From: Deltaproteobacteria bacterium
GTDB lineage: Bacteria > Myxococcota_A > Polyangia > Polyangiales > JADJMO01
Reading direction: 5' to 3'
NCBI GenBank assembly: GCA_022843175.1
Contig: JALHOE010000041.1
Coordinates: 1-50,146, forward strand
DNA: 50,146 bases
The notes under the pieces were generated by a model. It saw nothing but the letters and a program-made list of their open reading frames with translations, was not told the DNA's origin and searched no databases. Positions within the stretch are counted from its first letter, which is position 1, and each line of letters starts with the position of its first letter. Position numbers and translations under genes: made by a program. This document shows positions 11,730 through 13,807 of this stretch, piece after piece.

Positions 11730-13220
11730 TCAGGCGACGATCGGCAGGCGGTTGGGCTTTCCGGGCCGCGGTGAGAGCTGCGCGAACGCCCGCTTGTACG
11801 CCGCGAAGCCGCCGCCCGCGTGAACGGCCTCGGCGACGGCGCGGCCCTCGGCGTCGCCGCCCGCGGCCAGCAGCGCCTCGATCCACGCCCACTTCGCGCT
11901 GATCGACCGCACGTCGGCGCGCCCGCGGAGCCCACGGCGCAGGCGGTCGAGCCGGTGCTCGACGACGCTCACGCCGGCGAACGGGGCATCGACCATCGGC
12001 GTGTTCCTCTTGGGGCAGAACGGCGCGATGCCGAGGGCGACCGGGATGATCTTGGAGAGCTCGGTGGTGAACCGCACGCACTCGTCGATGTCCTCGTCGG
12101 TCTCGCCGGGGAGGCCGATCATCAAATAGAGCTTGAGGCGGTCCATCTTCACCGCGCGGGCGTTCTCGGCCGCGCGCAGCAGGTGACGAATCTCTGCGCG
12201 TCGATCGAGCTGCTTGCGCATGCGCTCGCTCGGGCCGTCCATCGCGGTGGTGAGCGTGCGATACCCCGCGCTCTTGAGCGCCTGGACGAACTCGAGCTTC
12301 AGCTTGTCCGGGCGGAGCGACGAGAGGCCGACCTCGGCGCCGCGATCGGTGAGGGTGCGCACGATGTCGACGATGCGCGGGTGGTCGCTCACCGCGGCGC
12401 CGACGAGACCGACGCGCTTGGCGTCTGCGGGGATGGTCGCGAGGATCTTCTCGTGCGAGACGATGCGCATGCCACCGTTGGTGGAGCGGCGCATGACGCA
12501 GTAGGTGCACCCGCGCGAGCAGCCGCGCGACGTCTCGATCAAGAACATCGACGAGAGCTCGGTGTCCTCGGCGCGGATCGGACCCCACGCGGGGAGCAGC
12601 TCGTCGTCGCACTGCGACAACGACGGGAGCTGTTCGCCGTGGAGCGCTGGCACCCAGACGTGCGGGAGCTTGGCGAGCGCCGCGAGCTGCTCGCTGCGGC
12701 CGCGGGTGGACTCGAGCGTGCGGACCACGTCGACCACGAGCGCCTCGGCCTCGCCCATGATCACCGCGTCGCAATAGGGCGAGAGCGGCGTGGGGTTGGA
12801 GAACGTGAGCGGCCCACCGCCGAGGACGAACGGGTGCCGCGCGTCGCGGTCGCTGCGGAAGATCGGCATCCCCGCGCCCTCGAGCACCTGCACCAGGCCG
12901 GCGACCTCGAGCTCGTAGGCGACGGACACCGCGAACACGGGGAAGTCGGACACCGCGCGCAGCGATTCGTAGGTGAGCAGCTGCGGATGCGGCTCGCCCG
13001 GCGTGGCGTCGTCGTCGAGGAACGCGCGCTCCGCTCCGAGGCCGGGCGCCTCCTGCAGCGCGCGGTAGATGCGCTGATAGCCGAGCGACGACATACCGAC
13101 GCGATAGGGCGACGGGTAGACGAGCGCGACGGGGAACGCGCCCTGCTTACGGATCGCGCCCACTTCGGTGTCGAGACGACGCCGAACCCTCTCGCGGAAG
13201 GTCTGGGGAGCGCGGGCCAT
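11730..13220 (-). CDS. Radical SAM protein with B12-binding-like N-terminal domain
   Basis: A 496-aa radical SAM enzyme. The 4Fe-4S ligand motif C-x3-C-x2-C is in R-G-C-S-R-G-C-T-Y-C at about residues 233-242. It is preceded by a Rossmann-like domain (residues 30-200) resembling the B12-binding domain of the TIGR03960/MiaB-like group, with Y-P-S-P-Y-R-V-G-M-S-S-L and G-G-G-P-L-T-F-S-N-P-T-P-L. Downstream L-M-I-G-L-P-G-E-T-D-E-D-I is the conserved radical SAM barrel segment. Substrate unknown. It starts 20 bases after the redox protein gene and is probably in one operon with it. Confidence 0.85.
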   Translation of the reverse strand: MARAPQTFRERVRRRLDTEVGAIRKQGAFPVALVYPSPYRVGMSSLGYQRIYRALQEAPGLGAERAFLDDDATPGEPHPQLLTYESLRAVSDFPVFAVSVAYELEVAGLVQVLEGAGMPIFRSDRDARHPFVLGGGPLTFSNPTPLSPYCDAVIMGEAEALVVDVVRTLESTRGRSEQLAALAKLPHVWVPALHGEQLPSLSQCDDELLPAWGPIRAEDTELSSMFLIETSRGCSRGCTYCVMRRSTNGGMRIVSHEKILATIPADAKRVGLVGAAVSDHPRIVDIVRTLTDRGAEVGLSSLRPDKLKLEFVQALKSAGYRTLTTAMDGPSERMRKQLDRRAEIRHLLRAAENARAVKMDRLKLYLMIGLPGETDEDIDECVRFTTELSKIIPVALGIAPFCPKRNTPMVDAPFAGVSVVEHRLDRLRRGLRGRADVRSISAKWAWIEALLAAGGDAEGRAVAEAVHAGGGFAAYKRAFAQLSPRPGKPNRLPIVA

Positions 13221-13240: not shown

Positions 13241-13807
13241 TCATGCGTCGCGGGCAAGCTCGTCGAGCGCGCGCGCCACGGCCGCGAAGTCGGTGGGATC
13301 GCCGGCCTCGCTCGATGCGTGCTGCAGGAGCACGCGACCGCCGCGCTGCTTGGCGTCGACGACGAGCACGCCGCCCTGCTGCCATGGATCGCCCGCGTTC
13401 GCTCCCTGCAGGTGACCGCGGCCGAGCGCGCGCACGGCGCTCAGCGCGCTCTTTGGGTTCAGCGTCTTGAGGACGCCGCGCTTCATGCCGGCGATGCGAT
13501 ACGCGGCGAGCGACGGATCGGTGACGAGCGTGCCCGGCACACGCTCCTGCTCGCGGAACCTTCGCGCCTGCTCCGGCGTGCCCGAGCCCACGATCACGAG
13601 CTCCCCGCCGTGCTTGGCGAGGGGCTCGAGCAGGTCGCGCGACCGCGCGACTTCTTCGCGACAGAACAGTCACCCGAAGTGACGCACGAAGAGCAGCACT
13701 GCGGCGTGGTCGTCGAAGTGTTGGCCGAGCGGGTGCGACTTGCCCTCGAGGTCGAGGACCGAGGCTTCGGCGAGCGTGCTGACCTGCGCGTCCATGTGCG
13801 GGGGCAT
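13241..13807 (-). CDS. Thioredoxin-fold redox protein (AhpC/TSA, PRXL2/SelU/SelL-like); predicted selenoprotein with in-frame TGA
   Basis: The frame from ATG 13807 to the stop at 13241 encodes 188 residues if the single TGA at 13672-13670 is read through. Before it: V-L-L-F-V-R-H-F-G; after it: L-F-C-R-E-E-V. Relatives (AhpC/TSA-like, AAED1/PRXL2) have Cys at the TGA position in F-x-R-H-F-x-C-x-x-C, so TGA replaces the peroxidatic-type Cys and gives U46-L-F-C49. C49 is the only Cys. The downstream half keeps family features (V-I-V-G-S-G, D-P-S-L-A-A-Y, G-M-K-R-G) and GC-biased codons, so it is not decaying. A hairpin with GGUC loop follows the TGA. An ordinary start at 13597 would lose the active site. 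Alternatives: nonsense mutation or sequencing error. The start could also be ATG 13795. Upstream gene ends 13 bases away; the radical SAM gene follows. Confidence 0.8.
13634..13651 (-). promoter_or_regulatory. Candidate bacterial SECIS hairpin
   Basis: On the minus strand, 18 bases after the TGA, lies a perfect stem GTCGCGC / GCGCGAC closed by the loop GGTC. The loop begins 26 bases after the TGA, within the spacing usual for bacterial SECIS elements (roughly 16-37), and GGUC is also at the apex of the E. coli fdhF SECIS that SelB recognises. The stem lies inside the coding sequence, as expected in bacteria. GC-rich palindromes can arise by chance here, so it supports but does not prove Sec insertion. 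Confidence 0.6.

Follow-up and report, generated by a model that had tools for sequence, protein, structure and literature searches.

Members of the SelU/PRXL2 group are redox proteins of eukaryotes and comprise SelU1 (PRXL2A), the prostamide/PGF synthase PGFS (PRXL2B) and C9orf21 (AAED1/PRXL2C). PGFS has also been named SelU3, and forms of SelU containing selenocysteine (Sec) occur in fish and invertebrates (PMC3473315). A second related system is SelL, reported to have two Sec residues (PMC3473315) that form a diselenide (PMC2397514). Among prokaryotes, the selenoprotein catalogues describe an AhpC/TSA selenoprotein (pfam13911/cd02970) with a UxxS motif, and a Prx-like thiol:disulfide oxidoreductase (PF00578) with UxxC or UxxU (PMC9312934, PMC13188914).

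The window, that is, the whole stretch of 50,146 nucleotides analysed here, contains a gene of the same kind on its minus strand (Table 1). We are almost certain that it is a bacterial selenoprotein gene, in which UGA46 would be decoded as Sec by way of SelB, tRNA-Sec and a SECIS element, and which would encode a peroxide or disulfide reductase of the PRXL2 group. The arguments are a conserved reading frame, the exchange of TGA with Cys codons among homologues, a SECIS hairpin, the presence of the Sec machinery and the predicted fold; from these we infer Sec insertion, the type of substrate and the reductant. With the eukaryotic SelU/PRXL2 proteins the window protein shares the fold, the PF13911 domain, the motif R-x-F-G-[U/C]-x-x-C-R and the existence of both Sec and Cys forms. 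However, the eukaryotic SECIS lies in the 3'-UTR, whereas here it is of the bacterial, in-frame type, and identity to human PGFS is just 22 to 26%. SelL and its relatives (NF040769) are likewise Prx-like, with the redox motif at the same position, but SelL has two Sec in UxxU where the window protein has U46-x-x-C49. The catalogued PF13911 and PF00578 selenoproteins belong, as described there, to the same domain group and have the same type of Sec position; the PF13911 entry is set apart by its description, UxxS as opposed to UxxC here, while the broad PF00578 Prx-like class may already include sequences like ours. The window gene is thus new as an entry, and the kind of selenoprotein is already known.

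Table 1. Coordinates of the selenoprotein gene, its recoding signals and its neighbour in the window
Feature	Position	Strand	Remarks
Selenoprotein gene, AhpC-TSA_2 / PRXL2 (SelU-like), thioredoxin-fold redox	13241..13807	-	188 aa including Sec46
In-frame TGA, Sec46 (predicted), position 1 of U-x-x-C	13670..13672	-	TGA/TGC/TGT-only column in 141 homologues
Codon TGT, Cys49, likely resolving partner of Sec46	13661..13663	-	invariant Cys in alignment A2
Bacterial SECIS, 7-bp stem GUCGCGC/GCGCGAC, apical loop GGUC	13634..13651	-	loop 25 nt after UGA, -12.1 kcal/mol
B12/radical SAM-type protein (Radical_SAM_N2 + Radical_SAM)	11730..13220	-	20 nt after selenoprotein stop

The frame consists of 188 codons and a terminal TGA (13243-13241), with a single internal stop at residue 46, in the context FVRHFG-U46-LF-C49-REE. 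The original prediction, made from the sequence, had proposed this minus-strand frame, with its TGA between F-V-R-H-F-G and L-F-C-R-E-E and with C49 as the remaining Cys, and the translation bears it out. Translation may start at 13807 (MPPHMDAQ) or at 13795 (MDAQ). An orthologue from the same genus (G001; 64% identity) has TGA in the same column. Compared with it, pN/pS was 0.256/0.382 upstream of the TGA (43 codons) and 0.243/0.396 downstream (142 codons), and dN/dS about 0.31/0.53 and 0.29/0.56, respectively, values that are similar on the two sides and protein-like. GC3 was 0.91 upstream and 0.87 downstream. The open frame around the TGA is not due to chance, because substitution is protein-like on both sides, the product matches PF13911, and the TGA is either kept or swapped only for Cys.

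At this locus, the standard list of open reading frames contains a C-terminal fragment of 118 aa (13241-13597), together with longer frames in the wrong register, and no N-terminal frame of at least 80 aa upstream of the TGA. Since the C-terminal fragment is all that is called of the gene, an ordinary gene caller would miss the active site, as had been anticipated. Standard annotation splits such genes and drops the catalytic residue, so that a widespread antioxidant-type selenoprotein of Myxococcota has been overlooked; our literature search on selenoproteins of Myxococcota or myxobacteria returned nothing relevant.

The codon at residue 46 was followed in 141 aligned homologues, drawn from 97 relatives, then from 379 genomes of the phylum, plus genome contigs. 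It was TGA in 93, TGC in 39 and TGT in 9, and no other codon was found, so that Cys homologues carry their Cys exactly where the window gene carries its TGA. Two of the entries (L010 and L048, both the same-genus orthologue) are one gene, which leaves 92 distinct Sec genes and 48 Cys genes. Together these offer a clean natural experiment on the exchange of Sec and Cys. Exactly one internal TGA was present in most good matches among the 97 relatives and then the 379 phylum genomes. On a maximum-likelihood tree, 11 changes between Sec and Cys were needed, versus 40 under shuffled labels; the number is a rough one, the deep branching being resolved in part, and well-supported branches require no fewer than six switches. 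Interleaved in this tree are Cys homologues belonging to Acidobacteriota, Planctomycetota, Chloroflexota, Dormiibacterota and other groups.

These data bear on the simplest objection, namely that a TGC or TGT was misread as TGA, or mutated to it in a decaying pseudogene, leaving a truncated, dead protein. The assembly is indeed a draft of metagenome type in 470 contigs, and TGA is one base away from both Cys codons. However, the independently assembled same-genus genome and another 90 genes from the phylum have the same TGA, purifying selection is equal upstream and downstream of it, and the SECIS model (see below) fits the TGA genes, not the Cys genes. We consider a sequencing error or pseudogene refuted to a practical degree by the shared TGA, the two-sided selection and the SECIS contrast, and give it a negligible probability.

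The strongest mechanistic evidence that UGA46 is a Sec codon is a hairpin just downstream of the TGA, a feature absent from the original prediction. The published model of the bacterial SECIS (PMC13188914) asks for a stem of 4 to 16 bp, a loop of 3 to 9 nt with a G in the first two loop positions, a distance of 16 to 37 nt from UGA to loop, and a minimum free energy of -7.5 kcal/mol or lower. The window hairpin agrees with it in every respect. With a simple version of the model, restricted to an uninterrupted stem, a hairpin was detected in 82 of the 92 Sec genes versus 1 of the 48 Cys genes. When the hairpin was set against synonymous shuffles, in which the protein and its codon usage are preserved, Sec genes had a median p of 0.01 and Cys genes one of 0.92. 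Fifty-eight Sec genes share the register of the window hairpin, always with GU in the loop, and a hairpin in this register together with a GU loop was present in none of the Cys genes.

The stem also covaries. Five of its seven pairs were changed on both sides, giving 18 such cells versus 2.9 in shuffles (0/500). For example, GUC-GCGC/GCGC-GAC becomes GUG-GUGC/GCAC-CAC, and the encoded amino acids change on both arms together. The covariation set was composed of the 58 genes preselected for the hairpin and a few close to it, so that the percentage of paired positions is biased there; because of this preselection, it is the contrast between Sec and Cys genes that constitutes the unbiased evidence for a SECIS. 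For the window sequence alone, the mean minimum free energy of the region after the UGA was not unusual (z -0.09; z 0.62), as coding sequence rich in GC forms stable folds in any case. The SECIS signal resides in the specific hairpin and its conservation, not in overall folding energy. A search of the window against Rfam gave no match, since Rfam has no general family for the bacterial SECIS.

A second SECIS register was observed in another part of the tree, where the loop lies about 17 nt after the UGA, that is, some 8 nt closer (GCGAGCA-GGU-UGCUCGC; loci L103, L107, L115, L117, L123, L127, L128, L132, L136, L137 and L146). In these genes the SECIS has moved to another place inside one and the same stretch of coding sequence. 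The assembled set of 92 Sec and 48 Cys genes also lends itself to following how a SECIS hairpin gets written into a conserved protein sequence.

The genome from which the window comes (9.75 Mb, 470 contigs, 95% complete) contains all the Sec machinery that was looked for. Its tRNA-Sec scores 65.1 bits (cut-off 47), with all model positions filled and a UCA anticodon; selB scores 279 bits (cut-off 242) and selA 389 bits (cut-off 268), both being partial at contig ends; and selD scores 359 bits, with an in-frame TGA of its own in GAGUACK. This selD (L044:1501-2430; G000:C44:36123-37052) is itself a selenoprotein gene. Among the 379 phylum genomes, selA was detected in 80 of the 84 with a TGA homologue versus 161 of the 295 others (Fisher p = 4.8e-14, indicative only, as the genomes compared share ancestry). 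The four TGA genomes lacking selA (G220, G257, G298 and G397) have a tRNA-Sec above cut-off in all cases and a selB above cut-off in two, for which reason assembly gaps are the best explanation of the missing selA.

One may also suppose that UGA is read as a sense codon for another residue, such as Trp in genetic code 4, or is passed by low-level, selenium-free readthrough. The frame would indeed be open with any residue at the TGA. However, the selenoprotein gene itself terminates at TGA, homologues without TGA in column 46 carry only Cys and never Trp, and a complete Sec system and a SECIS element are present. An alternative genetic code is rejected on these three grounds, and we attach hardly any weight to either form of this explanation.

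Read through the TGA as Sec, the protein matches PF13911 (AhpC-TSA_2; 4.1e-17, 63 bits against a gathering cut-off of 27) and PF00578 (AhpC-TSA; 2.2e-8). It also matches the NCBIfam model NF040769 (SelL_rel_redox; 5e-31) with 107.6 bits; this is 12 bits under the curated cut-off of 120, and the protein is therefore not filed under the SelL-related redox proteins. Among solved structures, human prostamide/PGF synthase (9us9; 4.3e-10) is closest in sequence, and the first Cys of its GCxxCR motif aligns opposite residue 46. AlphaFold2, run with a 20-sequence alignment (A2), predicted a peroxiredoxin-like fold (pLDDT 94.2, pTM 0.90), in which strand 36-40 is followed by helix 47-65. Sec46 is placed just before this active-site helix, and the succession of strand and helix assigns residue 46 to the active-site position of the thioredoxin fold. 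The best Foldseek match was again human PGFS (3.5e-12, TM 0.87 by target), followed by peroxiredoxins of the Bcp, PrxQ and AhpE types. The AhpC/TSA-like family, close to PRXL2, SelU and SelL, that had been named in the original prediction is thus the right one: the protein belongs, as a UxxC selenoprotein, to the PRXL2/SelU-like (PF13911) group and comes close to the SelL-related model without reaching its cut-off.

The following mechanism can be proposed. SelB and tRNA-Sec would insert Sec at UGA codon 46, directed by the in-frame SECIS hairpin directly downstream, to give a protein of 188 aa with a thioredoxin/peroxiredoxin fold and a Sec46-x-x-Cys49 pair just ahead of helix 47-65, the classical redox-active position. 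Most likely this would be a soluble enzyme that reduces peroxides or disulfides. The attack on the substrate, presumably a peroxide, a lipid peroxide or a disulfide, would come from Sec46; Cys49 would then resolve the selenium intermediate by forming a selenenylsulfide, and the pair would probably be regenerated by a thiol system.

A narrower function can be considered for the same selenoprotein, which would then be a lipid endoperoxide reductase resembling prostamide/PGF synthase instead of a general peroxide or disulfide reductase. Human PGFS tops both the sequence and the structure matches, with the first Cys of its CxxC opposite Sec46, and some relatives are fused to an SDR domain, which is of NAD(P)H type. 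However, identity to PGFS is low, a bacterium would need a different lipid substrate, and the window protein is unfused. We find a PGFS-like function improbable, and prefer the general peroxide or disulfide reductase.

More unusual than the window gene itself are these fused relatives. In many Myxococcota relatives, the Sec redoxin continues, without a break in the frame, into a classical SDR domain at the C-terminal end (TGANSGIG, HNAG and YAETK motifs; PF00106, 8.1e-24), as seen at no fewer than 16 loci among the matches listed (L068, from 1609; L070-L073, L076, L079, L082, L083, L087, L088, L090, L092 and L094; truncated in L074 and L081). On the maximum-likelihood tree these loci apparently fall in one clade of 36 genes, all Sec (support 99/96). 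Our search of the literature for selenoprotein-SDR-peroxiredoxin fusions found none, and the parts of the 2026 selenoprotein catalogue available to us do not list a Sec-SDR fusion. Such fusions provide a concrete hypothesis on the electron donor of SelU-like proteins. As a tentative extension, to which we lend limited credence, the window gene might belong to a large, as yet uncatalogued UxxC branch of SelU-like selenoproteins, widespread in Myxococcota (84 of 379 sampled genomes), with repeated Sec/Cys switching and at least two SECIS registers. The Sec-redoxin/SDR clade of this branch might then represent a selenoenzyme that is self-contained and draws on NAD(P)H, perhaps acting on lipid (endo)peroxides as PGFS does.

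The radical SAM gene next to the window gene gives a partial match to TIGR03960 and occupies the same place beside the selenoprotein gene in the same-genus genome, a conservation seen in two genomes of one genus, too few for functional inference.

Other Sec proteins were encountered along the way. Two loci of the same order (L020:1540, LRHLRULAU, a UxxU motif; L018, LRHLRULAC) are of the SelL type and form a separate Sec lineage elsewhere in the tree. A further Sec protein (L034:1501-1722, genome G078) is a lipoprotein-like AhpC/TSA protein with the motif RGHWUPFC.
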